NCBI RefSeq assembly: GCF_023278185.1
Contig: NZ_CP066356.1
Span: 6,812,001-6,876,000 of the forward strand
DNA length: 64,000 nt
From: Bradyrhizobium elkanii USDA 76
Lineage (GTDB): Bacteria; Pseudomonadota; Alphaproteobacteria; Rhizobiales; Xanthobacteraceae
Reading direction: 5' to 3'
Below the pieces are notes generated by a model. It searched no databases. It was not told the DNA's origin and saw only the letters and a list, made by a program, of their open reading frames with translations. This document shows positions 492 to 15,196 of the stretch, piece by piece. Each line of letters begins with the position of its first letter. Position 1 is the stretch's first letter. The translations under genes and the position numbers were made by a program.

Positions 492-544
492 TTTGACGCA
501 TTTTCGTCACGCGAACCGGTATCCACTTCGCTCGAAAACGCTCT
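492..544. repeat. Dispersed palindromic repeat, copy A
   Basis: The reverse complement carries GCGTTTTCGAGCGAAG, then ACCGGTT, then GACGAAAATGCGTCAAA. The same arrangement recurs at 35636-35686 with few changes. The ends are partly self-complementary (GCGTTTTC against GAAAATGC). It overlaps the last bases of phnN and may serve as its transcript 3' end. Dispersed elements of this look are common between genes in Bradyrhizobium. Confidence 0.7.
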
Positions 545-1136
545 ATTCGTCCCAGCGTTCGCCCTTGATGATGCGGACAAGCTGTCGCGCATGATAGTCG
601 GCGGTGCCGGAATTGACGATGGTGAAATCGGGCGTCGACGTGCTCTCGTCGACGGTGCGGGCCAGCCGCTGCTCGAGAAGGCCGTCGCTGCTGCGCGCCC
701 GCATCGCGAGCCGCGCGGCCAGCACATCCGGCGGCGCCGTGACCAGCACCACGACAGCATTGGCATAGTTGCGGCGCGCCGCGGCGATCACGGTGCGCGA
801 GACGTTCGCGATCACGATGCGTCCTGCACCGATATCGTCGTTGATCGACCGCGACAGCGCATAGCGATGGCCGTGCGCTTCCCAGTGCATGGCGTAGTCA
901 CCGGCGGCTACCGCGCGCTGGAAGCTCTCCGCGCTGACCTCCTCATTGTCCTCCGACGCCGAGGCCTGGCGGGTAATCAGCCGACGGGGAAACACGACAT
1001 CGCGATCATCGCCACAGGCCGCTTTGGCGAACCCCAGCAGCGTATCCTTGCCGGCGCCGCTCGGGCCGACCACCAGGATCAGCCGCCCGGGACCGATTCC
1101 GGCGCGCCGATCGGCGACGACGGATGCATCGGTCAT
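543..1136 (-). CDS. phnN: Ribose 1,5-bisphosphate phosphokinase PhnN
   Basis: PhnN phosphorylates ribose 1,5-bisphosphate with ATP to give PRPP, the last step by which the C-P lyase pathway returns its ribose to metabolism. The 197-residue protein has a P-loop, GPSGAGKDT, at residues 24-32 and the guanylate-kinase-like fold typical of PhnN, with TRQAS and the DYAMHWEAHGHRYAL stretch in the middle. The length matches the family. Its ATG overlaps the phnM stop as ATGA, so it is translationally coupled as the last gene of phnGHIJKLMN. It should act in the cytosol. Confidence 0.93.
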   Translation of the reverse strand: MTDASVVADRRAGIGPGRLILVVGPSGAGKDTLLGFAKAACGDDRDVVFPRRLITRQASASEDNEEVSAESFQRAVAAGDYAMHWEAHGHRYALSRSINDDIGAGRIVIANVSRTVIAAARRNYANAVVVLVTAPPDVLAARLAMRARSSDGLLEQRLARTVDESTSTPDFTIVNSGTADYHARQLVRIIKGERWDE

Positions 1137-2287
1137 GCGACCCTCCCCCCTTCGCGCCAGACGCTGCGCACGACGGGCAGATCGCGCGCGACGTGCACGC
1201 GGATCAGGTCGGCGCGCCGGCCGACCGCGATCTCGCCGCGGTCGTTGAGCCCGACCGCTTCGGCCGGTGTCTTGGTCACGGTGCGCACGGCGGAAGCGAG
1301 ATCGATCGCCGGCACATGCCGCGGCAGTTGCAGCGCCGCCATCAACAGGCTGGACGGAATGTAGTCCGACGACAGGATATCGAGCATGCCCTCATTGGCG
1401 AGATCGACCGCCGCGATATTGCCGGAGTGCGAGCCGCCGCGCACCACATTCGGCGCGCCCATCAGGATGTCGATGCCGGCGGCGTGCAAGCCCCGCGCAG
1501 CTTCCATCGTGGTCGGGAACTCCGCCACCGCGACCCTGTCGTTGACGGCGTCGACCACGTTCTCGTCGGTGGTGTCGTCATGGCTCGCCAGCGGGATCCG
1601 GTATTCATGCGCCAGCGCGACGATCGCGCGGGTGTTCGCAACAGCATATTCCTTCTGATAGGCGAAGCGCCGTGCGAACAGCACGTCGAGTTGGGCGTCG
1701 GTCATGCCGCCGCCCTTGCCGCGATAATAGTCGCGCAGCTTCACCTCGTCGCGGAACTGGCGCTGACCCGGCGTGTGGTCCATCAGCGACATCAGCCGCA
1801 CGTCCGGCCGGTCGATCAGTTCCTTGGCCTCGGCAACCACGTCCGGCATCGGGACCTCGCAGCGCAAATGCAGGAAGTGATCGGCGCGCAGCAGATTCTC
1901 CTCGCGCGCCGCCGCGATCGCCGCCGCCAGCACGCCGGCGCGGCCGTCGACATCCTCGGCGCCGTCCTCGCGCCAGACCCGCAGCGAATCCAGCACCGTG
2001 GTGATGCCTGAGGTCGCGAGCTGCCCGTCATAGGAGATCACGGCCGCGACCGGATTCCAGAACACCTTCGGCCGCGGCACATAGTGCATCTCGAGATGGT
2101 CGGTGTGCAGCTCGATCAGCCCGGGCATCAGGAGGTCGCCGCCGGCATCCTCGGCGGCCTCGGGCGCCCTGCCCTCGCCGAACTCGGCGATCTTGCCGCC
2201 TGATATCGCGACCCAGCCCTGCTCGATCACGCGATCGGCGAGGACCAGCCGGGCGTTGCCGATGATGGTGTCTTGCTTGACGGTCAT
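1133..2287 (-). CDS. phnM: Alpha-D-ribose 1-methylphosphonate 5-triphosphate diphosphatase PhnM (canonical copy)
   Basis: PhnM removes pyrophosphate from ribose-1-alkylphosphonate 5-triphosphate, giving the 5-phosphate used by PhnJ. This 384-residue amidohydrolase has the metal-binding start motif LMPGLIELHTDHLE and PRPKV, later SHDDTT, and the C-terminal SSDYIPSSLL with a GRRADL end. The order of motifs and the length fit PhnM. It lies 13 bp after phnL and overlaps phnN by 4 bp in the core operon. A second, diverged PhnM-like gene lies at 12375-13547 on the other strand. This copy is the better match to the classical enzyme. Confidence 0.94.
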   Translation of the reverse strand: MTVKQDTIIGNARLVLADRVIEQGWVAISGGKIAEFGEGRAPEAAEDAGGDLLMPGLIELHTDHLEMHYVPRPKVFWNPVAAVISYDGQLATSGITTVLDSLRVWREDGAEDVDGRAGVLAAAIAAAREENLLRADHFLHLRCEVPMPDVVAEAKELIDRPDVRLMSLMDHTPGQRQFRDEVKLRDYYRGKGGGMTDAQLDVLFARRFAYQKEYAVANTRAIVALAHEYRIPLASHDDTTDENVVDAVNDRVAVAEFPTTMEAARGLHAAGIDILMGAPNVVRGGSHSGNIAAVDLANEGMLDILSSDYIPSSLLMAALQLPRHVPAIDLASAVRTVTKTPAEAVGLNDRGEIAVGRRADLIRVHVARDLPVVRSVWREGGRVA

Positions 2288-2300
2288 TTCAAACGGTCCT

Positions 2301-3011
2301 TCAGGCAGCAGCCGCGAACGAGGTCACATCGACGATGCGGTCAGCAATCAGATGACGGATTTCGTCGTCATGGACAATCGCGACCATCGCGACGCCCCTG
2401 GTTTTCTTCTCGGCGATCAGCTCGACCACCACGGCGCGATTCGCCGCATCGAGCGAAGCGGTCGGCTCGTCCAGCAGCAGGATCGGCAGGTCCGAGATGA
2501 AGCCGCGCGCGATGTTGACGCGCTGCTGCTCGCCGCCGGAAAAGGTCGAGGGCGGCAAGGTCCACAGCCGCTCCGGAATGTTGAGCCGGCGCAGCAGCTG
2601 GCCGGCGCGCGCGCGGGCCTCCTCGCGCGCCACGCCGTTGACGATCAAGGGCTCGGCAACGACGTCGATCGTCGCCACCCGCGGCACGGCGCGCAGGAAC
2701 TGGCTGACATAGCCGATGGTCGAGCGGCGGATGCTCAGCACTTGGCGCGGCTCGGCGGTGGCAAGGTCGACAACCTTGCCGTGATGGCGGATGCCAATCC
2801 GGCCGCTGTCGCAGCGGTAGTTGCCGAAGATCATTTTCAGGATCGAGGATTTGCCGGCGCCCGACGGGCCCGACAGCACCACGCACTCACCCGGATCGAC
2901 GTGGAACGAGACGCCGCGCACCACGGGCAGTTCGACGCCGCCCTGCAGGTGCATGGTGAAGGTCTTCTCGGCGTCGGCAAGTTCGATCATCGCGGTCATT
3001 GGCACGCTCAT
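2301..3011 (-). CDS. phnL: C-P lyase accessory ABC-type ATPase PhnL
   Basis: PhnL is an ABC-type ATPase of the C-P lyase system that is not a transporter subunit. It works with PhnG, PhnH, PhnI and PhnM in joining phosphonate to the ribose of a nucleoside triphosphate. The 236-residue protein has Walker A GPSGAGKSS near residue 48, the signature TFSGGEQQRV, and Walker B LLLDEPTASLD. Its start overlaps the phnK stop as ATGA. Position and sequence separate it from PhnK and from the importer ATPase PhnC. The protein is cytosolic. Confidence 0.92.
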   Translation of the reverse strand: MSVPMTAMIELADAEKTFTMHLQGGVELPVVRGVSFHVDPGECVVLSGPSGAGKSSILKMIFGNYRCDSGRIGIRHHGKVVDLATAEPRQVLSIRRSTIGYVSQFLRAVPRVATIDVVAEPLIVNGVAREEARARAGQLLRRLNIPERLWTLPPSTFSGGEQQRVNIARGFISDLPILLLDEPTASLDAANRAVVVELIAEKKTRGVAMVAIVHDDEIRHLIADRIVDVTSFAAAA

Positions 3012-3805
3012 GGCGGAAGAATCGAGGAAACGAGCAACTGCGTGTAAGGCTCGCGCGGATCGTCGAGCACCTGGTCGGTCAGGCCGGTCTCGATGACGCG
3101 GCCGCCCTTCATCACCATCACGCGATGCGAGAGCAAGCGCGCCACCGCCAGATCGTGGGTCACGACGATCGCGGCGAGCCCGAGCTCGCTGACGAGGTTG
3201 CGCATCAGGTCGAGCAAACGCGCCTGCACCGAGACGTCGAGGCCGCCGGTCGGCTCGTCCATGAACACCAGCCGCGGCTCGGTGACGAGGTTGCGAGCGA
3301 TCTGCAGCCGCTGCCGCATGCCGCCGGAGTAGGTCCTCGGCGCATCGTCGATGCGGCCGGTATCGATCTCGACCCGCTCCAGCCAGGTCGACGCGGTGTC
3401 ACGGATGCGGCCGTAATGATTCCAGCCGACCGCCATCAGCCGCTCGCCGACATTGGCGCCGGCCGACACGCCCATGCGCAGGCCCTGCGCCGGATCCTGG
3501 TGCACGAAGCCCCAGTCGGTGCGAAACAGGAAGCGCCGCTCGGCCTCGCCCAATTCGGCGAGATCGCGCAGCACGCCGTCGCGCATCCGGTAGGACACCC
3601 GGCCCGCGCTCGGCGCGAGCTGCGCCGAGAGCAGCTGCAGCAGCGTCGACTTGCCGGAGCCGGACTCGCCGACGATCGCCAGCACCTCGCCGGGATAGAG
3701 CGCGAACGAGACGTCGCGGCAGGCGGCAAGCCGGCCGTAATCCTTGGCAAGCCCCTCGGCCACCAGCAACGGCTCGTCGTTGTCGAGGCTCGATAGCTCA
3801 GACAT
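3008..3805 (-). CDS. phnK: C-P lyase complex ABC-type ATPase PhnK
   Basis: PhnK docks on PhnJ in the C-P lyase core complex and its ATPase activity is thought to open the complex. The 265-residue protein has Walker A GESGSGKST at residues 46-54, the signature TYSGGMRQRLQIAR and Walker B LVFMDEPTGGLD. It resembles oligopeptide-type ATPases, as PhnK does. Its first codons overlap the end of phnJ by 8 bp and its stop overlaps the phnL start. The cytosolic location follows from the family. Confidence 0.93.
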   Translation of the reverse strand: MSELSSLDNDEPLLVAEGLAKDYGRLAACRDVSFALYPGEVLAIVGESGSGKSTLLQLLSAQLAPSAGRVSYRMRDGVLRDLAELGEAERRFLFRTDWGFVHQDPAQGLRMGVSAGANVGERLMAVGWNHYGRIRDTASTWLERVEIDTGRIDDAPRTYSGGMRQRLQIARNLVTEPRLVFMDEPTGGLDVSVQARLLDLMRNLVSELGLAAIVVTHDLAVARLLSHRVMVMKGGRVIETGLTDQVLDDPREPYTQLLVSSILPP

Positions 3806-4682
3806 GCGCCTTCTCCTTGTGCGGCGCCGCGCTCTCGGTGCCGTGATGGCCGGCCGCCTGGCGCTGCTCGCAGAAGTCCGTGTCGGAGCAGACGAACATC
3901 CGCCCGCCCTTGTCGTCGGTGACGATCTCGTCGAGATAGGAATTGTCGGCGCCGCACAGCGCGCAGGGCGCGTTGAAGCGGTAGCGCGTGAACGGATGAT
4001 CCTCGAAGTCCAGCGACACCACCGTGGTGTAGGGTGGGATCGCGTAGATGCGCTTCTCGCGGCCGGCGCCGAACAGCTGCAGCGCCGCGCAATTGTCCAT
4101 CTTCGGATTGTCGAACTTCGGCGTCGGCGACGGGTCCATCACGTAGCGCGCGTTCACCTTCACCGGATAGGCGTAGGCGGTGGCGATATGGCCGAAGCGC
4201 GCGATGTCCTCGTAGAGCTTGACATGCATCAGCCCGTATTCGGCGAGCGCGTGCATGCGCCGCGTCTCGGTCTCGCGCGGCTCGAGGAAGCGCAACGGCT
4301 CGGGGATCGGCACCTGATAGACCAGCACCTGTCCGGCATGCAGCGACGCCTCGGGAATGCGATGCCGGGTCTGGATCACGGTCGCGTCCGTGGTCGAGGT
4401 CGTGGTCGCGACGCCAGCGGTCTTGCCGAAGAATTTGCGGATCGAGATCGCGTTGGTGGTGTCGTCCGAGCCCTGGTCGATCACCTTCAGCACGTCGTCG
4501 GGACCGAGGATCGCGGCCGTCACCTGCACGCCGCCGGTGCCCCAGCCATAGGGCATCGGCATCTCGCGGCTCGCAAACGGCACTTGGTAGCCAGGGATCG
4601 CGATCGCCTTGAGGATCGCGCGGCGGATCATCCGCTTGGTCTGCTCGTCGAGATAGGCGAAGTTGTACGTCGGCGCGTTCAT
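3798..4682 (-). CDS. phnJ: Carbon-phosphorus lyase, radical SAM subunit PhnJ
   Basis: PhnJ cleaves the C-P bond of ribose-1-alkylphosphonate 5-phosphate by radical SAM chemistry, releasing the alkane and the 1,2-cyclic phosphate. With the ATG at 4682 the protein is 294 residues. The four conserved cysteines of the iron-sulfur site are visible at 240, 243, 265 and 271 (CALC, then FVCSDTDFC). The glycine that carries the radical in E. coli PhnJ corresponds to G31 in PGYQVPFASREMPMPYGWG. The reading frame runs further upstream, but the chosen ATG overlaps the phnI stop as ATGA and gives the usual family length. All catalytic residues I can check are present. Confidence 0.96.
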   Translation of the reverse strand: MNAPTYNFAYLDEQTKRMIRRAILKAIAIPGYQVPFASREMPMPYGWGTGGVQVTAAILGPDDVLKVIDQGSDDTTNAISIRKFFGKTAGVATTTSTTDATVIQTRHRIPEASLHAGQVLVYQVPIPEPLRFLEPRETETRRMHALAEYGLMHVKLYEDIARFGHIATAYAYPVKVNARYVMDPSPTPKFDNPKMDNCAALQLFGAGREKRIYAIPPYTTVVSLDFEDHPFTRYRFNAPCALCGADNSYLDEIVTDDKGGRMFVCSDTDFCEQRQAAGHHGTESAAPHKEKAHV

Positions 4683-5782
4683 TCCGCGGCCTCCTGCATT
4701 TCCACGGCCGCGCTGGCTTCCGCAAACTCCTGCCGCAGCTTGCGCAACAGGCCGAGCTCGGACTGGAAGTCGACATAGTGAGGCAGCTTGAGATGCTCGA
4801 CGAAGCCGGTCGACTGGACATTGTCGGAGTGCGACATCACGAACTCCTCGTCCTGCGCCGGCGCCGCCGCCTCCTCGCCGAGCTCGCGCGCACGCAGCGC
4901 GCGATCGACCAGCGCCATCGACATGGTCTTGCGTTCGCTCTGCCCGAAGGCGAGGCCATAGCCGCGGGTAAAGCACGGCGCCTCGGTCGTCGAGCCCTTG
5001 AACTGGTTGACCATCTGGCACTCGGTCAATTCGATCCAGCCGAGCGGCACGGCAAAGCCCGCGTCCTCGGCGAAGAACTCGACCTCGACCTCGCCGAAGC
5101 GGATCTCGCCAGCGAAGGGGTGATTGCGGCCGTAGCCGCGTTGCGTCGAGTAGCCGAGCGCGAGCAGGAAGCCCTCGTCGCCGCGCGCCAGATTCTGCAG
5201 CCGCAGATCGCGATCAGCCGGAAAGCTCAGCGGCTCGCGCGTGAGGTCGCCGACCGGCGTGTCGCTATCTGCCTGCGGCGAGGGTTCGATCAGACCATCA
5301 CGGCCGAGAATGTCGGTGACCCGCGGCGTGGCGGCCTGCGAGGCTTCCGCGGTCGCCGGCTGCTCCGGCACAAAGCCTTCCGCGAGCTGCGGATCGAGCA
5401 GGCGATGGGTGTAGTCGAAGGTCGGCCCCAGGATCTGGCCGCCCGGAACGTCCTTGAACGTCGAAGAGATCCGCCGCCGCACCTGCATCTCGCCGGTGTT
5501 GACCGGCTCGGTGGCGCCAAAGCGCGGCAGCGTGGCGCGGAAGGCGCGGACCAGGAAGATCGCCTCGATCATGTCGCCGCGCGCTTGCTTGATCGCGAGC
5601 GCCGCGAGCTCGCGGTCGTAGAGCGAACCTTCGGTCATCACACGATCGACACCAAGCGCGAGCTGCTCGGAGATCTGTGCCAGCGTCACCTCGGGCACGT
5701 CGCGGTCGCCGCGCCGCTCATGCGCGAGCAGCCGATGAGCATTCTCGATGGCGCGCTCGCCTCCCTTGACGGCTACATACAT
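4679..5782 (-). CDS. phnI: C-P lyase core subunit PhnI
   Basis: PhnI is the nucleosidase-like subunit that, with PhnG, PhnH and PhnL, attaches the phosphonate to the ribose of ATP or GTP and releases the base. The 367-residue protein begins MYVAVKGGERAIENAHRLL, which is highly typical of PhnI, and contains the GYGRNHPFAGEIR stretch. The length fits the family. It starts 3 bp after the phnH stop and overlaps phnJ by 4 bp. It is a cytosolic member of the core complex. Confidence 0.95.
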   Translation of the reverse strand: MYVAVKGGERAIENAHRLLAHERRGDRDVPEVTLAQISEQLALGVDRVMTEGSLYDRELAALAIKQARGDMIEAIFLVRAFRATLPRFGATEPVNTGEMQVRRRISSTFKDVPGGQILGPTFDYTHRLLDPQLAEGFVPEQPATAEASQAATPRVTDILGRDGLIEPSPQADSDTPVGDLTREPLSFPADRDLRLQNLARGDEGFLLALGYSTQRGYGRNHPFAGEIRFGEVEVEFFAEDAGFAVPLGWIELTECQMVNQFKGSTTEAPCFTRGYGLAFGQSERKTMSMALVDRALRARELGEEAAAPAQDEEFVMSHSDNVQSTGFVEHLKLPHYVDFQSELGLLRKLRQEFAEASAAVEMQEAAE

Positions 5783-5785
5783 CGC

Positions 5786-6394
5786 TCACCCTCCGCTTGC
5801 GATCAGCCGCGTGGTGCGCGGGATCGCCACAATGGCATCGTCATGGACCAGCACGACATCGATGCCGCGCGGGAACAGGGCTTCGTTGATCGCAAGCCGC
5901 TGGAACAGGTCGCGTGGCTTGATCATCGCCTGCAACACGGCGCTGCCGTCGATGCCGGGCCCTTTCAGCTCGAAAGCCGGGCCCTGCGACAGGCTGTCGA
6001 CCTGCAGGATCAGCGTGGTCGACCGGTCAGGATATTCGCTGCTGCCGAATGTGAATCGATCGAGCGCCGGCAAGCTCGCGGCGTCGCCGACCAAAGCGAA
6101 GCTCGCGATCGAGGAATCGGTGATCACCGGCGCGCTGGCGTGAAACTTCAGCCAGCGGGCGACGTCCGGCGTCGCCGACATCGCAGCATCAAGCCAGATC
6201 GGCGTGTCGTGATCGAACAGCGTCAGCGCGATGGCGGCCGAGCCGCGCATCATGCCGGCCGGTGTTCCCACGCTCGCGGCGACGCGCTGCACGCTGCCCG
6301 GGCGCGCCATCGCATCCATCACGGAACGGAAAGTCGACTGCGCCGACAGCACCTTGTCGGCAAAGCCCGCGGGCATTTCGGCAATCGTCGTCAT
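5786..6394 (-). CDS. phnH: C-P lyase core subunit PhnH
   Basis: PhnH is a structural subunit of the C-P lyase core, with a fold related to PLP transferases but without PLP. I start it at the ATG at 6394 (MTTIAEMPAGFADKVL, 202 residues), because GAGGG lies about 8 bases upstream. A GTG at 6409 in the same frame would overlap phnG and lacks a clear ribosome site. The motif FRSVMDAMARPG near the N-terminus is typical. Its neighbours are phnG, 4 bp upstream, and phnI. Confidence 0.93.
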   Translation of the reverse strand: MTTIAEMPAGFADKVLSAQSTFRSVMDAMARPGSVQRVAASVGTPAGMMRGSAAIALTLFDHDTPIWLDAAMSATPDVARWLKFHASAPVITDSSIASFALVGDAASLPALDRFTFGSSEYPDRSTTLILQVDSLSQGPAFELKGPGIDGSAVLQAMIKPRDLFQRLAINEALFPRGIDVVLVHDDAIVAIPRTTRLIASGG

Positions 6395-6398
6395 TGCA

Positions 6399-6860
6399 TC
6401 ATCCCTCACCGCGCACCATCGTGTAGAAATCGACCCGCGTCGCCGCGGTTTCCGCTGCCTTGCGGCCTCGTTCAGCGTTCATGGCGACGCGCAGCGGCGC
6501 GATCACCTTGGCCTCCACCTCGCCGGACAGCTCCGCCGACTGCATCATGGCGTCGCACAGCGCGATCATCTGCGCCTTCCGCGCGTCGCGGCCGAGCGTG
6601 TAGCCGAAGCCGACCTCGCCGGTCGCAAGCCGCACCGCCGCGCGCGACACCGTCGCCTCGCCGAGATTGAACGGCGCACCGTCGCCGCCGATCCGCCCGC
6701 GCAGCATCACAAGGCCGTTTTCCGGCTCGCGCAGGTTCTCATGCGCGGGCACCGCGATCGCCGCCAGCCTGCCGGCGATATCCGCAGCGGCGGCGTGCGC
6801 CAGCACCGTCATCGCGGCCTTGCGCTGGGCCTGTTTGCTGTTTGGTCCGGTCGAACTCAT
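6399..6860 (-). CDS. phnG: C-P lyase core subunit PhnG
   Basis: PhnG is a small subunit of the C-P lyase core complex. From the ATG at 6860 it has 153 residues and contains QRKAAMTVLAHA and VMLRGRIGGDGAPFNLGE, the latter matching the conserved PhnG core. The frame is open back to a TTG at 6914, but that would run into the 32-bp palindrome and give an atypical N-terminus, so I reject it. phnG is the first gene of phnGHIJKLMN and is presumably controlled from the operator just upstream. Confidence 0.92.
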   Translation of the reverse strand: MSSTGPNSKQAQRKAAMTVLAHAAAADIAGRLAAIAVPAHENLREPENGLVMLRGRIGGDGAPFNLGEATVSRAAVRLATGEVGFGYTLGRDARKAQMIALCDAMMQSAELSGEVEAKVIAPLRVAMNAERGRKAAETAATRVDFYTMVRGEG

Positions 6861-6888
6861 GGGCAAACCTTTGGGCAACCTTGCTTGC

Positions 6889-6920
6889 ATCAAGTTGTCT
6901 ATGATACTAGACAACTTGAT
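6889..6920. promoter_or_regulatory. Candidate PhnF operator, 32-bp palindrome between phnG and phnF
   Basis: Two perfect 13-bp arms, ATCAAGTTGTCTA at 6889-6901 and TAGACAACTTGAT at 6908-6920, flank the 6-bp spacer TGATAC. The site lies 28 bp from the phnG start and 56 bp from the phnF start, so one dimeric regulator could control both directions. PhnF-type GntR/HutC proteins bind such inverted repeats, and phnF is adjacent. The assignment to PhnF is inference from position and symmetry. Confidence 0.8.
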
Positions 6921-6976
6921 AGCGGAGCGCCATGACTGTTTCGTGACAAACCAAAGATTTCTGGTATCACCGCGCC

Positions 6977-7702
6977 ATGAGCATGCAGGAAAGTTCCGGC
7001 GTCGCCTTGTGGCGGCAGGTCGCCGACGGCATCGAGCGCGGCATCGCTGACGGCCGCTTTGCCGCCGGCGAAAAGCTGCCCGGCGAGATGGAGATCGCCG
7101 AGACGTACCGGGTCAACCGGCACACCGTGCGGCGGGCGCTCGCCGCATTGGCCGAGCGCGGCCTGGTGCGCGCCGAGCGCGGCAGCGGCACCTATGTCGA
7201 AGCCCAGCGCCTCGCCTATCCCCTGCGCTCACGCACGCGATTTTCCGAGATCGTCGGCGCCGGCGGTCACGAGCCGCGCGGCCAGTTGATCGAGGCAGGC
7301 GACGACGTTGCCAATCGCGAGATCGCACGCGAACTGGGCCTGAAGATCGGTGCGCCACTGATCCGGATCGAAGCGGTGCGCCTCGCCGACCGGACGCCGA
7401 TCTGCGTTTCCACCACCTGGCTGTCGGCCGAGCGGTTTCCCGATGCCGGCAGCGTATTCGCCAACGTTCGCTCGATGACCAAGTTGCTCGGACATTACGG
7501 CGTCAAGGACTACCACCGCGCCTCGACCCGGATCACCGCGGCGATCGTCGATGCGACCGACGCCGCGCGGCTCGACCTGCCGCTGGGACGACCCGTGCTG
7601 GTGGTCGACGCCACCGACGTCGACATGCTGGACCAGCCGCTGGTGACCAAGCGCTCGCGCTTCGCCGCCGAGCGCGTCGAGTTTCTGGTCGAGAACGGCT
7701 GA
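6977..7702 (+). CDS. phnF: Phosphonate regulator PhnF (GntR family, HutC subfamily)
   Basis: This is a transcriptional regulator of phosphonate genes. The 241-residue protein has an N-terminal winged helix (LWRQVADGIERGIADGRF, then VNRHTVRRALAALAERGLV) and a C-terminal UTRA ligand-binding domain beginning near residue 80 (PLRSRTRFSEIV). The layout and length match PhnF. It is divergent from phnG with the large palindrome between them and convergent with phnE. It probably represses the phn operon and itself until a phosphonate or pathway intermediate binds. The ligand is not visible in the sequence. Confidence 0.9.
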   Translation: MSMQESSGVALWRQVADGIERGIADGRFAAGEKLPGEMEIAETYRVNRHTVRRALAALAERGLVRAERGSGTYVEAQRLAYPLRSRTRFSEIVGAGGHEPRGQLIEAGDDVANREIARELGLKIGAPLIRIEAVRLADRTPICVSTTWLSAERFPDAGSVFANVRSMTKLLGHYGVKDYHRASTRITAAIVDATDAARLDLPLGRPVLVVDATDVDMLDQPLVTKRSRFAAERVEFLVENG

Positions 7703-7868: not shown

Positions 7869-8717
7869 CTACACCACCGCCCTTTGCCCGATGATCGCAA
7901 AGCGCAGCTTGCTGGAGATGAAATCGATCGCGGCAACCGCGATCAGGATCATCAGGATCAGGAACGACACCTTCTGCCATTCCAGCACGCGGATCTGCTC
8001 GGCGAGTTGCAAGCCGATGCCGCCGGCGCCGACGATGCCGATGATGGTCGCCGAACGGGTGTTGGACTCGATGAAGTAGAGCACCTGCCCGGCGATCACG
8101 GGCAGCACCTGCGGCAGCAGGCCGAAGCGGATCTCGTGCAGCGGGTTGCCGCCGGAGGCGCGGATGCCCTCGACCTGCTTGCGATCCGCCGCCTCGATCG
8201 CCTCCGAGAACAGCTTTCCGAACGCGCCGAAGTCGGACACCATGATCGCGAGCACGCCGGCGAACGGGCCGAGGCCGACGACGTTGATCCAGACCAGCGC
8301 CCAGATCAGCGTGTCGACGCCGCGGATCGAATCGAGGAAGCGGCGCACCGGAAAGCGGATCAGGTTGGAGGGGATGATATTGCGCGCCGCCAGCAGGCTG
8401 ACCGGCAGCGCCAGCAGCGCGGCAAGCGTGGTGCCGAGCAGCGCGATCGACAGCGTCTCGCCGAGCGCCTGCATGTAGAGCGGGAACGACGAGCCCGGAT
8501 TCGGCGGGATCATCAGCATGGTGATCCAGCCGAGCTGGCTGAGGCCCGCGATCAGCCTGGACGGCGAGAAGTCGAGATCGACCAGGCCGAACACGAAGAT
8601 CGCAAACGCCGCCACGATCATCGCCGGCAGCGCCAGCCGCGCCGAGGCGGGCCGGTCGAAGGCGTCGGGATATTTCGCGCGCAGCTCGGGCGTATCCGGC
8701 TTCGGCAGCTGGCTCAT
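7869..8717 (-). CDS. phnE: Phosphonate ABC transporter permease PhnE (second copy)
   Basis: This inner-membrane subunit of the phosphonate importer has 282 residues. It has a hydrophobic segment near residues 28-50, a GTTLAALLALPVSLLAARN stretch and the permease loop EAIEAADRKQVEGIRASGGNP, which contacts the ATPase. It follows the first phnE with an ATGA overlap. Two tandem phnE genes after phnD are frequent in alphaproteobacteria, and the channel is then probably a heterodimer of the two. It is the last gene of phnCDEE. Confidence 0.92.
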   Translation of the reverse strand: MSQLPKPDTPELRAKYPDAFDRPASARLALPAMIVAAFAIFVFGLVDLDFSPSRLIAGLSQLGWITMLMIPPNPGSSFPLYMQALGETLSIALLGTTLAALLALPVSLLAARNIIPSNLIRFPVRRFLDSIRGVDTLIWALVWINVVGLGPFAGVLAIMVSDFGAFGKLFSEAIEAADRKQVEGIRASGGNPLHEIRFGLLPQVLPVIAGQVLYFIESNTRSATIIGIVGAGGIGLQLAEQIRVLEWQKVSFLILMILIAVAAIDFISSKLRFAIIGQRAVV

Positions 8718-9598
8718 CGCCGGGTCTCCTTACCGAATAGCCGGCCGCGCAGCCAGCCGGTCGAGATATCGATGATGAAGACCGTGATGATGATGGTGAC
8801 GAGGATGGCGCTGACGTCGGAATAATAGAACTTGCGGATCGCGACCACGAGTTCCTGGCCGATGCCGCCGGCGCCGACAAAACCCATCACCGAGGCTTCG
8901 CGGACATTGATCTCGAAGCGCAGCAGCGCGTAGCTTGCATAGCCGGCCGAAACCTGCGGCAGCACGGCAAAGCGCATGCAGGACAGCCAGCTCGCGCCGG
9001 TGGAGCGGATGCCCTCGACCGGCTTCATGTCGGCATTCTCGACGATCTCGGCGAACAGCTTGCCGAGCGCGCCGGTCGAGTGAATCGCGATCGCCAGCAC
9101 GCCGGCCATCGGCCCGAGGCCGAACGCGATCACGAAGATCAGCGCAAACACGATGCCGGGCACCGTGCGGGCGAATTCCAGCAGGCGGCGCACCACAAAG
9201 CGCAGCCACGGTCCCGGCGAGGTGTTCTGGGCCGCGAAGAAATTCAGCGCAAAGGCGAACACCGCGCCGGTCAGCGTGCCGACATAGCTGATCAGCAGAG
9301 TCTCGCCGAGCATCTTCAGCCACTTCTTCCAGCCCCAGAACCATTCAGGAAGATCGGTCCAGACCCGCGCGCCCGAATCAAGCGTCAGGATGCGGTCGAA
9401 ATAGCTGACGAAGTTGCCGAAATAGGTGAACAGCGTGCGCAGGTTCACCTCCGCGCCGAACGCGGCGATCACCAGCACCGCACAGAACGCGGCCACCGCC
9501 AGCGCAGCCTTGAGCCGCTTGCGTGCGACGGACCTGCGGTAAGCGTCTTCCAGCGTGGCCAGTTGCTGCGCCGGAAGAATGGATACGGCGGTCGCCAT
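8714..9598 (-). CDS. phnE: Phosphonate ABC transporter permease PhnE (first copy)
   Basis: This 294-residue membrane permease of the phosphonate importer has a cytosolic N-terminal leader, a first membrane span around residues 32-50, a GTLTGAVFAFALNFFAAQN span, and the coupling loop EIVENADMKPVEGIRSTGAS. It shares its architecture with the next gene but diverges clearly from it, so the pair is an old duplication. It lies 74 bp after phnD and overlaps the second phnE by 4 bp. Confidence 0.92.
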   Translation of the reverse strand: MATAVSILPAQQLATLEDAYRRSVARKRLKAALAVAAFCAVLVIAAFGAEVNLRTLFTYFGNFVSYFDRILTLDSGARVWTDLPEWFWGWKKWLKMLGETLLISYVGTLTGAVFAFALNFFAAQNTSPGPWLRFVVRRLLEFARTVPGIVFALIFVIAFGLGPMAGVLAIAIHSTGALGKLFAEIVENADMKPVEGIRSTGASWLSCMRFAVLPQVSAGYASYALLRFEINVREASVMGFVGAGGIGQELVVAIRKFYYSDVSAILVTIIITVFIIDISTGWLRGRLFGKETRR

Positions 9599-9672: not shown

Positions 9673-10608
9673 TCAGCTCGCCTTCTTCTTGCGCAGATTG
9701 TCGACGAACTTGATCAGCTCGATGGTGCCGTCCCAATCCTTGGTGGTGGCGGGATGGAAGCCCTTCTTCTGGCCGTCGGAGAGACGGTCGAAAGCGGCCT
9801 TGTCCTTGGTCGGGGCGTCGAAGAAGGCCTTCGCGATCGCGGCCTTCAGATCTTCCGGCAGATCGGCGTTGTAGGCATAGGGACCGTTGATGATCGGCGC
9901 CGACTTGTGGATGATGCGAAAATCGTCCTTCTTCATCGCCGAGCCGTCGGCGTTCTTCAGCATGCCCTTGTGCAGCATCTGGGCCAGCGTGGAGTCGTCG
10001 TCGCTGGTCCACTGATTGGCCGCCATATCGACGGTGCCCTGCGCCAGCGCCAAGACGGCGTTCTCGTGGCTGCCGGTGAACACGACCTTGCCGAAATAGG
10101 TATCCGCATCGTGGATGCCCATCTTGTCGAGCTCGAAGCGCGGCACGTTGTTGCCCGACGTCGAGTTCGGATCGACCAGGCCGAGATTCTTGCCCTTCAG
10201 GTCATCGACGCTCTTGGAGGGGCTCGACGCCTTGACGAAGAATACCGAGTAATAGCCGGTCGAACCGTCCGCGTTGATGTCGTTGGCGAAGGCGTCGGTC
10301 TTGACGCCGGTCAGGCGGGCGCGCGCGAACGAGGCCGAGCCGTAGCTGGCGATCTGGATGTTGCCGGCGCGCTGACCTTCGATAACGGCCGCGTAGTCGT
10401 TGGCGATGCGCAGCGTGACCTTCACGCCGAGTTCCTTCGACAGGTACGCCACGAACGGCGTCCAGCGCTCGGTGACGCCGGAGGCGTTCTCGGCCGGCAC
10501 CACCGCGAAGGTGAGCTCCGGATATTTTGCTTTCCAGTCCTGCGCGAATGCCGAACCGGTGAACGCCAGCACGGCGGCGCCGGCCAGAACGATGCGACGA
10601 GTGATCAT
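9673..10608 (-). CDS. phnD: Phosphonate ABC transporter periplasmic binding protein PhnD
   Basis: PhnD captures phosphonates in the periplasm and delivers them to PhnE. From the ATG at 10608 the protein has 311 residues with a signal peptide (MITRRIVLAGAAVLAFTGSAFA, likely cut before QDW). The mature part contains FAVVPAENASGVTERWTPFV and the SGNNVPRF ligand-pocket stretch. A strong GAGGGG site precedes this ATG, so the longer upstream frame is not used. It lies between phnC and the two phnE genes. Confidence 0.93.
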   Translation of the reverse strand: MITRRIVLAGAAVLAFTGSAFAQDWKAKYPELTFAVVPAENASGVTERWTPFVAYLSKELGVKVTLRIANDYAAVIEGQRAGNIQIASYGSASFARARLTGVKTDAFANDINADGSTGYYSVFFVKASSPSKSVDDLKGKNLGLVDPNSTSGNNVPRFELDKMGIHDADTYFGKVVFTGSHENAVLALAQGTVDMAANQWTSDDDSTLAQMLHKGMLKNADGSAMKKDDFRIIHKSAPIINGPYAYNADLPEDLKAAIAKAFFDAPTKDKAAFDRLSDGQKKGFHPATTKDWDGTIELIKFVDNLRKKKAS

Positions 10609-10684
10609 GACTACCCCTCTTTTGTGGTTACACCTGTTGGCCGGGCAAAACGCCCAGCCTCGCAGATTGAAAAATGCGCGACGC

Positions 10685-11500
10685 TCAGGCCGCGGCTGCG
10701 GTGCCGAGCGCCGGAGCCGTTGCGCCGTCGGGCGCAGGCAGCGGTGCTGCGCCGATGACGTCATTGGCCTCGAGATCGTAAAGCTCGCGGGCGATATGGT
10801 CGGTCAGCGCCGCCGGGGCGCCGTCGAATACCACCCGCCCCGCCGCCATGCCGACCAGGCGATCGCAATAGGTCCGTGCCAGGTCGAGCGAGTGCAGGTT
10901 GCAGAGCACCGTGATGCCGAAATGCTTGTTGATGCGCAGCAGTGCATCCATCACGATCTTGGTGTTGCGCGGATCGAGCGAGGCGATCGGCTCGTCGGCA
11001 AGAATGATGTCGGGCTCCTGCACCAGCGCGCGGGCGATCGCAACGCGCTGCTGCTGGCCACCGGAGAGCTGGTCGGCGCGCTGCGCCGCGAGCGGGGCGA
11101 TATCGAACTGATCGAGCGCGGACATCGCCAGCGCCCTGTCCTGCTCCGGCCAGGCCTGCGCCAGCGAGCGCCAGGACGGAATCTGGGCCAGCCGGCCCAT
11201 CAGCACATTGGTCAGCACGTCAAGGCGGCCGACCAGATTGAACTGCTGAAAGATCATCGCCGAGCGCGCCCGCCATCGCCGCAGCGCCCTGCCGCGCAGG
11301 GCGGTGACGTCGGTGCCTTCGAACAGGATACGGCCCGAGGTCGGATCGGCGAGACGGTTGATCATCCGCAGCAGGGTCGACTTGCCGGCGCCGGAACGAC
11401 CGATCACGCCGACAAAGCTGCCCGGCGCGATCGAAAAGGACGCGTTGTCGACTGCGGCTTTCGTGCCGAACCGGCACGTCAAACCTTCCACCACCAGCAT
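10685..11500 (-). CDS. phnC: Phosphonate ABC transporter ATPase PhnC
   Basis: This is the ATPase subunit that powers phosphonate import through PhnE. From the ATG at 11500, preceded by TTGGAG, it has 271 residues. Walker A is GRSGAGKST, the signature is [13 protein letters not shown] and Walker B is [12 protein letters not shown], all in normal order. It is the first gene of phnCDEE. The upstream region is shared with the divergent acetyltransferase operon and contains Pho-box-like repeats. Confidence 0.93.
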
Positions 11501-11546
11501 GTAATGCTCCAACCGCGCCTCGTTGGGCCATCGCTATCCCCGGCGC

Positions 11547-11614: not shown

Positions 11615-11643
11615 CCGTCATCGCAACGTCATGATGTTGTCAT
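11615..11643 (+). promoter_or_regulatory. Candidate Pho box with three half-sites
   Basis: Three units, CCGTCAT (11615-11621), ACGTCAT (11626-11632) and TTGTCAT (11637-11643), are each separated by 4 bp, giving an exact 11-bp period. This is the layout of PhoB operators. The direction of the units points to the operon starting at 11713, 69 bp downstream. Control by phosphate starvation is inferred from known Pho regulons that contain phn genes. Confidence 0.78.
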
Positions 11644-11712: not shown

Positions 11713-12378
11713 ATGGCCGGAAAAACACTCTCGGTTGTGCCGACCGTCGACCCGACCGCGTCGGTCCGTGAGAGCAAGCTCGGCAAATACACCGAGGTCG
11801 GCGCGCGCACGATCCTGCTTGAAGTGAGCATGGATGACTACTCCTACGTCGTGAACGACAGCCAGATCACCTACAGCTCGATCGGCAAGTTCTGCTCGAT
11901 CGCGGCGATGACCCGCATCAATCCCGGCAACCACCCGATGCATCGCGCTAGTCAGGCGCATTTCACCTACCGCGCCAGCGCGTATTTTCCCGGAGAGAGC
12001 GACGACACCGACTTCTTCAACTGGCGACGTGCGCATCACGTGCATATCGGCCATGACGTCTGGATCGGGCATGGCGCGATCCTGTTACCGGGCCGGAACA
12101 TCGGAACCGGCGCTGTGGTCGCCGCCGGCGCGATCGTGACCAAGGATGTGCCCGCCTACACCATCGTTGCCGGTAATCCGGCGCGGCCGGTGAAGCGGCG
12201 CTTCTCCGAGACGATCGCCGACCGCCTCGCCGCGCTCGCGTGGTGGGACTGGGATCACGAAACACTTCGGCGTGTCCTGCCCGACTTTCGCAAACTCGCG
12301 GTCGAGGAATTCCTCGACAAGCATGAGGCCGAGGCCGTATCCCAATCGCAAGCCAAACAACGGAGCGCCGCATCGTGA
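11713..12378 (+). CDS. Phosphonate-cluster hexapeptide-repeat acetyltransferase
   Basis: This is a left-handed beta-helix acyltransferase of 221 residues. The hexapeptide turns are visible from [18 protein letters not shown] to [17 protein letters not shown] strands, followed by the loop [16 protein letters not shown] and [19 protein letters not shown], the xenobiotic acetyltransferase signature. A family of such proteins is found only in phn clusters (TIGR03308-like). It starts an operon with a phnM paralogue (GTGA overlap) and a DUF1045 gene. It may acetylate aminoalkylphosphonates, the job of the unrelated GNAT PhnO elsewhere; that is inference. Confidence 0.85.
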
Positions 12379-13547
12379 CGGACATTTTCATCGAGGGCGG
12401 GCGCACGCTGGTTGACGGCGCCCTGGTCGAGACCTCGCTGCGGACCGCGGGCCGCGACATCGGCGCGCTCGACGCCGAGCAGGGTCGCGCCGCGCTTCAC
12501 ATCGATGTCAGTGGCCTGCTGGTGCTGCCCGGCATCATCGATCTGCACGGCGATGCGTTCGAGCGGCAGATGATGCCGCGCCCAAGCGTCGACTTCCCGA
12601 CCGACGTGGCGTTGATCGACAGCGACCGGCAGGCGATCGCCAACGGCATCACCACCGTGTTCCATGGCACGACCTGGTCGTGGGAGCCCGGCCTGCGCAG
12701 CGCGGAGAATGCGCGGAAACTGCTCGACGCGATCGAGGCGCTGCGGCCGCAGCTCGCCGCCGACACCCGCTTCCACCTGCGTCACGAGACCCACAATCTC
12801 GAGGCCGAGGCCGAGATCATTCAATGGCTCGCCGAAGGCCGCATCGACCTGTTCGCCTTCAACGACCACAGCAACGTCAAGCCGAAGAAGCGCAACCAGC
12901 TGGCCGAGCGCACCGGGCTCTCCGTCGAGGCCGTCAACGACATGCTCGACCGGGTCGTGGCGCGCCGCCCCGAAGTGCCCGCCTCGATCGCGCGACTGGC
13001 AGCGGCTGCGCGCGCGGCCGATATCCGCATGCTGTCGCATGACGACAACAGCCCGGCGATGCGCCAGGAGTTTCGTGCGCTCGGCGCCGTGATCGCCGAA
13101 TTCCCTGTCAACGAGGAGACCGCGCGCGACGCCGCTGATGCGGGCGACTTCATCGTGTTCGGCGCGCCCAATGTGGTGCGTGGCGGCAGTCACACCGGCT
13201 GGACCAAGGCATCCGACATGATCGCACAGGGCCTCTGCTCGGTGCTGGCGTCGGACTACTACTATCCGGCGCAGCTGCTCGCGGCGTTCCGCCTCGTCGC
13301 CGATGGCATCCTGCCGCTCGCCAGGGCCTGGGACCTGATCTCGTCGGCACCGGCGCGCGCGGCAGGGCTCGCCGACCGCGGCGAGCTCGCCGCGGGCCGC
13401 CGTGCCGACATCATCGTCGTCGACGACAAGGTGCCGCTGCGGCCGCGCATCGTCGCCGTGATAGCGGCCGGACGGCTGGTGCACCTGGCGGACGCGAGCT
13501 GCCTCGTTCATTCGCTCGCACCGCGCAAGACGGTTGCGGCGGCATAG
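12375..13547 (+). CDS. phnM: Second PhnM-like amidohydrolase of the phosphonate cluster
   Basis: This 390-residue amidohydrolase has PhnM layout: [23 protein letters not shown] near residue 50, [30 protein letters not shown] and [12 protein letters not shown]. It differs from the canonical PhnM in the first motif, with HGDAFER where the other has HTDHLE, and it carries a [10 protein letters not shown] insert absent from the other copy. The start is a GTG overlapping the preceding stop. It sits between the acetyltransferase and DUF1045 genes. It probably acts on a related ribosyl phosphonate or another phosphoanhydride, but the exact substrate cannot be told. Confidence 0.85.
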
Positions 13548-13556
13548 TCCGGTCCC

Positions 13557-14249
13557 ATGGCCAGCACTCCGCGCTACGCGATCTATTATGCGCCGTCACC
13601 CGACAGCGCCCTGCACCGCTTCGGTTCGACGCTGCTCGGCTACGATGCCGTTTCGGGCGACGACCTGCCGTTTCCCGATGGCGTCACGCCCGACTGGCGC
13701 GAGGTCACCGAAGATCCGCGCAAGTATGGATTCCACGCCACGCTGAAGGCGCCCACCGCGCTCGCCGCCGGTCGGAGCGAGGCCGAGCTTCTCGATGCCT
13801 GTGCCGCCTTCGCCGGCCGCGCGCGGCGCATTCCGGTGATCGAACCGGTGGTCGATGCGATCAGCGGCTTCATCGCGGTGATTCCGGCCGGCCGCTCGGA
13901 CGAGCTGCAACAGCTTGCCGCCGATTGCGTCGCGGAATTCGACGCGTTCCGTGCCCCGCTGACGGCCGCGGATCGCGCGCGGCGCAAGCCCGAGCGGCTC
14001 ACCGCGCGGCAGTGCGACTATCTCGATCGCTGGGGCTATCCCTACGTCATGGAGGAGTTCCGCTTCCACATGACGCTGACGGGGCGGCTGAGCGACGAGC
14101 GGCGCGGCCCGATCGTGGCCCAGCTGCGCGAGCGGTTCGCGGCGATCGAGCTTGCGACGCTGGCCATCGACCGCATCGCGCTGCTCAAGCAGGCCGATGG
14201 CGCATCCCGCTTCCGCATCATCGGCAGCTGGCAACTGCGGGCGAGCTAA
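13557..14249 (+). CDS. DUF1045 2H-type phosphoesterase of the phosphonate cluster
   Basis: This 230-residue cytosolic protein has the two HxT motifs of 2H phosphoesterases: H60-A-T62 in YGFHATLKAP and H171-M-T173 in FRFHMTLTG. It belongs to the DUF1045 (TIGR03223) family that occurs in C-P lyase clusters. 2H enzymes open cyclic phosphates of ribose. The C-P lyase product is 5-phosphoribosyl 1,2-cyclic phosphate, and no PhnP gene is seen in the window, so it may replace PhnP. Its stop overlaps the convergent LysR stop. The family is certain; the reaction is inferred. Confidence 0.88.
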   Translation: MASTPRYAIYYAPSPDSALHRFGSTLLGYDAVSGDDLPFPDGVTPDWREVTEDPRKYGFHATLKAPTALAAGRSEAELLDACAAFAGRARRIPVIEPVVDAISGFIAVIPAGRSDELQQLAADCVAEFDAFRAPLTAADRARRKPERLTARQCDYLDRWGYPYVMEEFRFHMTLTGRLSDERRGPIVAQLRERFAAIELATLAIDRIALLKQADGASRFRIIGSWQLRAS

Positions 14250-15196
14250 TTTGGCTTCGCGAGCTCGGCCAGCAGCCACTTCTTGAATGTCTGCAGCGCG
14301 CGACTGCGCTGCGCGCCCGGCGGATGAACCAGCCAATAGCTGCCGGTGACGTGGCCGACCGGCAGGAGCCGGCGAATCGCGCCGCGCCGCTCGCTTTCCC
14401 CGATAAAGGGTTCGAGCGCGAGCGCGACACCGGCACCGCGCTCGGCAGCCTGCAGCGCCGCCACAAAACTGTCGACCGAGATCGCGCGCGTTGCGGGCGG
14501 CGCGGGCTCGCCGGCATGCTTGAACCAGAGCGGCCAGGCTGCGGGGAATGTCGTCACATGGATCAGGACGCCGCGGCCGAGATCGGCAGCGGTGCGCAGC
14601 TTCAACCGCCGGGTCAGCGCCGGCGCGCCGACCGGAACGGTCCTCACCTCCATCAAGCGATGCGCGACGACGCCTTCGGGCTTGTCGGGCCCGAAGCTGA
14701 TGCCGGCATCGAATGTCTCGGCGTCGAAATCGACATTGCGGTTCGAGGTCTCGATCGCAAGATCGAGCTCGGAATGCCGGGTGAGGAACGAGGATAGCCG
14801 CGGGATTAGCCAAGCCGACGCGAACTGCGGCAGCACCTTGAGCCGTAGCCGGCGCTGGCCGGCCGCCTCGACCGCCGATTCCGCCTGCGCCAGCAGTGCA
14901 AACGCGCGACCGGTCGCGGCGGCCAGCTTCTCACCGGCAGGAGACGGCCGAACCACGCGATGGGTACGGTGAAACAGCGCGACGCCAAGATGGATTTCGA
15001 GATTGCGAATGCGATGGCTGATCGCCGAGGCGCTGACATTCAGCACGCCCGCGGCCTCCTTGAAGCTGCCGAGCCTGACTGCGACATCGAACGCCTGCAA
15101 TGCCAGCAGATGCGCCGGCCGGAGGCTTGCAGCAGCGAGGTCTTCCCTCCCTTGCGACAGCGACCGGCGCCCCGGCCTTGGGTTGTTCCTGCTCAT
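14246..15196 (-). CDS. LysR-family transcriptional regulator
   Basis: This 316-residue regulator has an N-terminal winged helix (LLALQAFDVAVRLGSFKEAA, then VSASAISHRIRNLEIHLGVALF) and a C-terminal effector domain. The helix is of the GcvA/AmpR-like type. It is divergent from the Rieske oxygenase gene with 170 bp between the starts, the usual layout for a regulator and its target, and a T-N11-A palindrome lies there. Its stop codon overlaps that of DUF1045 on the other strand. The effector is unknown, perhaps the oxygenase substrate. Confidence 0.9.
   Translation of the reverse strand: MSRNNPRPGRRSLSQGREDLAAASLRPAHLLALQAFDVAVRLGSFKEAAGVLNVSASAISHRIRNLEIHLGVALFHRTHRVVRPSPAGEKLAAATGRAFALLAQAESAVEAAGQRRLRLKVLPQFASAWLIPRLSSFLTRHSELDLAIETSNRNVDFDAETFDAGISFGPDKPEGVVAHRLMEVRTVPVGAPALTRRLKLRTAADLGRGVLIHVTTFPAAWPLWFKHAGEPAPPATRAISVDSFVAALQAAERGAGVALALEPFIGESERRGAIRRLLPVGHVTGSYWLVHPPGAQRSRALQTFKKWLLAELAKPN

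Follow-up and report, generated by a model that had tools for sequence, protein, structure and literature searches.

The window analysed here, a 64,000-nucleotide stretch of the Bradyrhizobium elkanii USDA 76 genome (contig NZ_CP066356.1, positions 6,812,001 to 6,876,000), contains a carbon-phosphorus (C-P) lyase gene cluster in which a protein of the DUF1045 family is encoded. The genes phnGHIJKLMN (6914 to 543) and phnCDEE (11512 to 7869) are located on the minus strand, and the plus strand carries phnF and a row of three genes, hexT-phnM2-DUF1045. The set phnGHIJKLM together with phnN, which makes up a complete C-P lyase pathway, is present, and profile matches identified every gene from phnG to phnN, in agreement with a preliminary description of the locus made from its sequence alone. 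That description reported no PhnP in the cluster and proposed that the DUF1045 protein, a 2H phosphoesterase, performs the PhnP step. It mentioned neither that the row begins with hexT nor that the cluster holds two phnM genes, with DUF1045 in line with the second. PhnM1 and PhnM2 belong to different subfamilies, and the conserved His/Asp/Glu/Arg positions are kept in both.

The DUF1045 gene (13557-14249, plus strand) encodes 230 amino acids from ATG to TAA without internal stops. Its product matched the NCBIfam model TIGR03223 ("putative phosphonate metabolism protein", RcsF) over residues 6-227 of 230 with 271.8 bits (cut-off 248.95) and the Pfam family DUF1045 (PF06299) with 193.5 bits. TIGR03223 was its only NCBIfam match at E <= 1, and the protein is not a member of the PhnP model (TIGR03307). 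The two HxT motifs, H60-A-T62 and H171-M-T173, were found where the preliminary description had placed them, about 110 residues apart, which is the arrangement of HxT/S motifs in the 2H superfamily. H60, T62, H171 and T173 were shared by all 27 diverse DUF1045 proteins of one comparison, and the motifs were likewise invariant in 28 of 28 proteins of a second one. The protein shares 93% identity with named Bradyrhizobium proteins, and DUF1045 and PhnJ are each encoded once in the 9.5-Mb genome. The possibility that the gene is a remnant was rejected, since the reading frame is intact and the motif residues are retained. As is typical of the family, the gene lies among phosphonate genes (phnFGHIJKLMN, CDEE, hexT and phnM2).

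The predicted structure of the protein has the 2H fold, and its second match in PDB was a plant ADP-ribose 1'',2''-cyclic phosphate (Appr>p) phosphodiesterase. This Arabidopsis enzyme (1jh6, 1fsi) is 14% identical to the DUF1045 protein and differs in its substrate, whose 5-phosphate bears ADP. A sequence search for a solved structure of a DUF1045 relative found none, the only match being irrelevant (E 0.46).

A search with the PhnP model found no PhnP in the cluster or in the rest of the 9.5-Mb genome. There were 13 weak matches at E <= 1; with the cut-off at 272 bits, the best of them reached 33.5. The best candidate protein scored 108 bits with RNase Z models (below their cut-off) versus 37 bits with PhnP. 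In view of this low, RNase-Z-like best match, the idea that the genome hides a PhnP at another site was rejected.

The distribution of the two enzymes was analyzed in 297 genomes of the window's order and 299 genomes of the phylum Pseudomonadota. The order sample contained PhnJ in 177 genomes, DUF1045 in 220 and PhnP in one, PhnP being counted there from matches at E <= 1e-25 with eight candidates per genome scored, so that weaker relatives are uncounted. DUF1045 was encoded in 176 of the 177 genomes with PhnJ (in G176 as a fragment at a contig end, counted as present), and the remaining one, G287, was the PhnP carrier. PhnJ was present in 75 genomes of the phylum sample, of which 29 were already in the order sample, 24 belonged to the same class and 22 were more distant; among the latter, G332 was dropped because its PhnJ match was a 19-bit fragment with stops. 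All 24 genomes of the same class encoded DUF1045 and none of them PhnP above the cut-off, while the 21 more distant genomes comprised 17 with PhnP and four with DUF1045; the weak DUF1045 matches of G434 and G480 (38 and 30 bits) were left out of these counts. In total, each of the 222 Pseudomonadota genomes with PhnJ contained exactly one of the two, either DUF1045 (204) or PhnP (18), and both states occurred within family f75 (G456 and G552). The ratio of 204 to 18 is not a census, since the sampling was denser within the order than outside it. In the sampled Pseudomonadota, ring opening in the C-P lyase pathway goes with one of two unrelated enzymes, DUF1045 being the commoner in this order-weighted sample, and surveys that count genes with phnP as the marker would miss it.

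The hypothesis of a PhnP substitute is already in print, and the preliminary description is an independent re-derivation of it. Martinez et al. (2013; PMC3840354) consider RcsF, a 2H protein of phnP-less clusters, likely to have the role of PhnP. They also show that Escherichia coli BW16787, deleted for phnHIJKLMNOP, grew on phosphonates when it received a Rhodobacteraceae fosmid with rcsF and without phnP; methylphosphonate, ethylphosphonate, 2-aminoethylphosphonate, 3-phosphonopropionate and 3-aminopropylphosphonate were used. This fosmid, B3_TF_MPn_2, carries a marine Rhodobacteraceae C-P lyase cluster that resembles the one in the window in having rcsF for phnP, a second phnM, a second phnE and a hexapeptide transferase, and differs in its origin from a marine metagenome, in an additional GNAT acetyltransferase and in its demonstrated function in E. 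coli (PMC3840354). The proposal is repeated in PMC8235418, PMC10574752, PMC5649143 and PMC6981132. A survey of 54 operons, with phnP in 27 and rcsF without phnP in 16, is quoted in PMC10574752, and the present counts enlarge this small sample to 222 genomes with PhnJ. According to the same paper, T. erythraeum, which lies outside the Pseudomonadota, lacks PhnNOP.

The genome search, the exclusion in 222 of 222 genomes, the predicted 2H fold with its match to the plant Appr>p enzyme and the genetics published in PMC3840354 all support the assignment made in the preliminary description. We estimate at about 0.87 the probability that in this Bradyrhizobium the DUF1045 protein serves the C-P lyase pathway as its phosphoribosyl cyclic phosphodiesterase and that this 2H enzyme, unrelated to the metallo-beta-lactamase PhnP, takes the place of the latter and feeds PhnN. 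The substrate would be 5-phosphoribosyl 1,2-cyclic phosphate, the product of PhnJ. Of the two motif histidines in the 2H cleft, H60 and H171, one could activate water and the other protonate the 2-oxygen, while T62 and T173 would hold the phosphate, and the reaction is probably metal-independent. The product would be ribose 1,5-bisphosphate, which the PhnN of the cluster would convert to 5-phosphoribosyl pyrophosphate (PRPP).

PhnP of E. coli (TIGR03307) has the same proposed reaction and pathway place, next to phnN, but belongs to the unrelated metallo-beta-lactamase family and was never found together with DUF1045 in the genomes with PhnJ. The window protein shares family membership (above the cut-off), neighbourhood, motifs and proposed role with RcsF (TIGR03223/PF06299), and it differs in nothing essential, its gene being in line with the second phnM and not with phnM1 and phnN. 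Another unrelated replacement of PhnP is PhnPP of Eggerthella lenta, a PHP superfamily protein with a different fold and a two-step hydrolysis.

Several points weigh against this assignment. LigT, Usb1 and AKAP18 share the 2H fold at nearly the same Z score, so the fold leaves the substrate unfixed. The fosmid account in the passage of PMC3840354 gives no control with rcsF removed, and no enzyme assay of purified DUF1045 or RcsF was found in the literature searched, most subscription papers being outside its reach. Only two changes of the DUF1045/PhnP label are required on the PhnJ tree (66 rows), so that few independent exchanges underlie the exclusion. PhnP-like metallo-beta-lactamases that score 63-86 bits, short of the 272-bit cut-off, are encoded at a distance from phnJ in six DUF1045-encoding genomes of the class. 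Finally, DUF1045 is encoded in 49 genomes without PhnJ, and replacement of PhnP may therefore not be its whole role.

The PhnP-like proteins of those six genomes, as well as the 13 weak matches in the Bradyrhizobium genome, would be expected if another enzyme, an unlinked metallo-beta-lactamase or a PHP-type PhnPP, performed the PhnP step and DUF1045 processed by-products, for instance 2',3'-cyclic nucleotides or ribosyl 1,2-cyclic phosphate. The 2H enzymes are versatile, and the searches covered PhnP and not PhnPP. On the other hand, the cluster with rcsF was functional in phnP-less E. coli, as described in PMC3840354. The best match in the window's own genome is RNase-Z-like, and DUF1045 or PhnP was always present, and never both, in the 222 genomes, which makes this explanation improbable. 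We give slightly less weight still to the idea that ring opening by DUF1045 takes the opposite direction or that the enzyme strips the phosphate completely, in the manner of PhnPP, in which case PhnN would not act next. It would agree with 14 of the 44 order genomes with DUF1045 and without PhnJ, which encode PhnM and had no PhnN match among the 36 kinase candidates scored per genome. However, phnN is present in the window cluster, in many loci it is part of the DUF1045 row or adjacent to it, and the Arabidopsis structural neighbour is reported to yield the 1''-phosphate.

The features of the window are listed below. The hexapeptide-repeat transferase HexT is possibly an acetyltransferase in the place of PhnO. 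The true start of phnD is probably downstream of the start of its longest open reading frame, since the profile match begins at residue 55. A triple direct repeat of GTCAT in the 200-bp gap between phnC and hexT occurred once in the 64 kb and never in 100 shuffles of the window; judged by its sequence, it can be read as a candidate Pho box, through which phosphate starvation would control hexT-phnM2-DUF1045. Both this site and a second one, between phnG and phnF, were assigned with the Pho-box consensus; sites of the second kind numbered eight in the window versus 3.1 expected. On the other side of the DUF1045 gene, a gene for a GcvA-like LysR regulator (14246-15196) is convergent with it, the two overlapping by four bases at their stop codons.

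Features of the C-P lyase cluster in the window, with the evidence for each assignment
Feature	Position	Strand	Evidence
phnN, ribose 1,5-bisphosphokinase	543..1136	-	TIGR02322, 202.5 bits
phnM1	1133..2287	-	PRK15446.1-4, 620 bits
phnL	2301..3011	-	profile match
phnK	3008..3805	-	profile match
phnJ	3798..4682	-	PF06007, 492 bits
phnI	4679..5782	-	PF05861, 546 bits
phnH	5786..6409	-	profile match
phnG	6399..6914	-	profile match
Pho-box-like site	6932..6949	-	3 mismatches to Pho-box consensus; between phnG and phnF
phnF, GntR/UTRA regulator	6977..7702	+	TIGR02325
phnE permease	7869..8717	-	profile match
second phnE permease	8714..9598	-	profile match
phnD (longest open reading frame)	9673..10764	-	profile match from residue 55
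phnC	10685..11512	-	profile match
Pho-box-like triple direct repeat GTCAT, 11-bp spacing	11617..11643	+	between phnC and hexT-phnM2-DUF1045
hexT, hexapeptide-repeat transferase, phosphonate-associated	11713..12378	+	TIGR03308 (hypothetical equivalog), 338 bits
phnM2, second phnM paralogue	12375..13547	+	NCBIfam PRK15446.2-1, 674 bits
DUF1045/TIGR03223 (RcsF) 2H phosphoesterase, proposed phosphoribosyl cyclic phosphodiesterase	13557..14249	+	profile match, motifs, predicted fold

Of the 49 genomes with DUF1045 and without PhnJ, 44 are among the 120 PhnJ-less genomes of the order and represent 15 families, and the other five come from the phylum sample; genome-wide absence of the lyase was judged from PhnJ only. 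PhnM was encoded in 34 of them (31 above the cut-off) and PhnN in 17, versus 0 of 31 each in control genomes (Fisher p 4e-11 and 1e-4), which were every second of the 76 order genomes lacking both PhnJ and DUF1045 (31, up to G222). In the 24 stand-alone loci read, phnM adjoins DUF1045 in 17 (on the opposite strand in L044 and L097) and phnN is in the row in eight, and neighbouring genes of these rows frequently have between one and four bases in common. L042, in a 4.8-Mb single-contig genome, is a clean DUF1045-phnM-phnN row whose three products each exceed their cut-offs, and the DUF1045 proteins of L093, L097 and L098 scored 214-243 bits, slightly below the cut-off of 249. Among the best 80 of 593 named loci, 31 had no phnI or phnJ nearby; PhnJ was encoded elsewhere in 22 of these genomes and was not found in nine, two of which are metagenome bins and none of which comes with a completeness figure. 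The nine include three Martelella species, Hoeflea halophila, Shinella zoogloeoides PQ7 and Neorhizobium sp. SOG26, and their rows consist of all three genes in seven cases, DUF1045-phnM in one and DUF1045-phnN in one. The stand-alone type was found in all four genomes listed for g37 and in 11 of 12 listed for g32, and in both groups members without either gene may be missing from the count.

Stand-alone copies are interspersed with those linked to C-P lyase on the DUF1045 tree (120 rows, 33 from genomes without PhnJ; quick search), where the PhnJ label requires 18 changes, seven of them forced by supported branches; this is consistent with the lyase having been lost repeatedly while the other genes were retained. 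The ratio of nonsynonymous to synonymous substitutions (dN/dS) was 0.10-0.44 in six stand-alone pairs from the order, and two further pairs from the class were saturated in dS. A scan for Pho boxes was repeated with larger controls, because two phnG controls outside the window had scored low in the first scan. A score of at least 11/14 was reached upstream of 17 of 51 phnG genes and 29 of 101 phnC-like genes, compared with one of 32 stand-alone operons and 23 of 1500 random stretches, with L046 left out owing to its short upstream stretch. The phnC-like set included any match at E 1e-10 and hence ordinary ABC ATPases and phnJ-less loci.

Our reading is that PhnM, DUF1045 and PhnN, none of which cleaves the C-P bond, form a separable salvage module. 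The module could be primarily one for salvage or repair of 5-phosphoribosyl cyclic phosphate or another 5'-triphosphoribosyl compound, which C-P lyase clusters use, and we hold the odds of this to be a little below even. Candidate non-phosphonate sources of 5-phosphoribosyl 1,2-cyclic phosphate would be the decay of PRPP and the ADP-ribose 1'',2''-cyclic phosphate formed in removal of RNA 2'-phosphate. The companion view that a self-standing module, taking in such a cyclic phosphate and giving out PRPP, outlives a C-P lyase that is repeatedly lost is equally tentative. Both are favoured by the enrichment of PhnM and PhnN over the controls, the shared rows in the loci read and in the nine named genomes, the prevalence of the type in g37 and g32, the dN/dS values, the label changes on the tree and the scarcity of Pho boxes before stand-alone operons. 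Against them, DUF1045 is accompanied by neither PhnM nor PhnN in 14 of the 44 order genomes, most of them with divergent copies, and the Pho-box contrast with the phnC set is gone at a score of 12 (8 of 101 versus 1 of 32, p 0.69). Another Shinella zoogloeoides strain has a full cluster on a plasmid, so some absences of PhnJ may reflect strain variation or recent loss, and with PhnJ the only lyase component sought genome-wide and two of the named genomes being bins, the absences carry that limit as well. Moreover, PhnM would need another feed where PhnI is absent. A salvage role is compatible with the assignment of DUF1045 as the phosphodiesterase of the C-P lyase pathway and would change what the family is for.

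The stand-alone row hints at a second job of DUF1045 and is a lead worth following. It raises the testable question of whether bacteria have other sources of ribosyl cyclic phosphates and a repair route to PRPP. No report of a stand-alone DUF1045-PhnM-PhnN row was found in the literature searched, with the same restriction on subscription papers, and second phnM copies outside C-P lyase operons are noted in PMC9381506.

Stand-alone DUF1045 genes, mostly with phnM and sometimes with phnN beside them, are located at L041-L056, L059, L060, L093-L098, L101, L102, L109, L145, L151, L157, L161, L162 and L167. Divergent DUF1045 proteins (E 1e-25 to 1e-40) are encoded in 11 genomes of families f27/f28 (G026, G027, G063, G064, G094, G095, G118, G119, G140, G159 and G270), in which PhnJ, PhnM and PhnN were not found. 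No partner gene common across families was seen in the stand-alone loci read. In the six f29 loci read (L049-L051, L053, L056 and L059), a gamma-glutamyltransferase-like gene precedes the phnM-DUF1045 pair, the label being derived from L051 only, with a score below the model cut-off. Multiple copies also occur: G114 encodes three PhnJ and three DUF1045 proteins, two of the pairs lying no more than 4 kb apart, and in G204 three PhnJ are joined by additional, fragmented DUF1045 copies. In G074, however, a single DUF1045 stands against five PhnJ matches.
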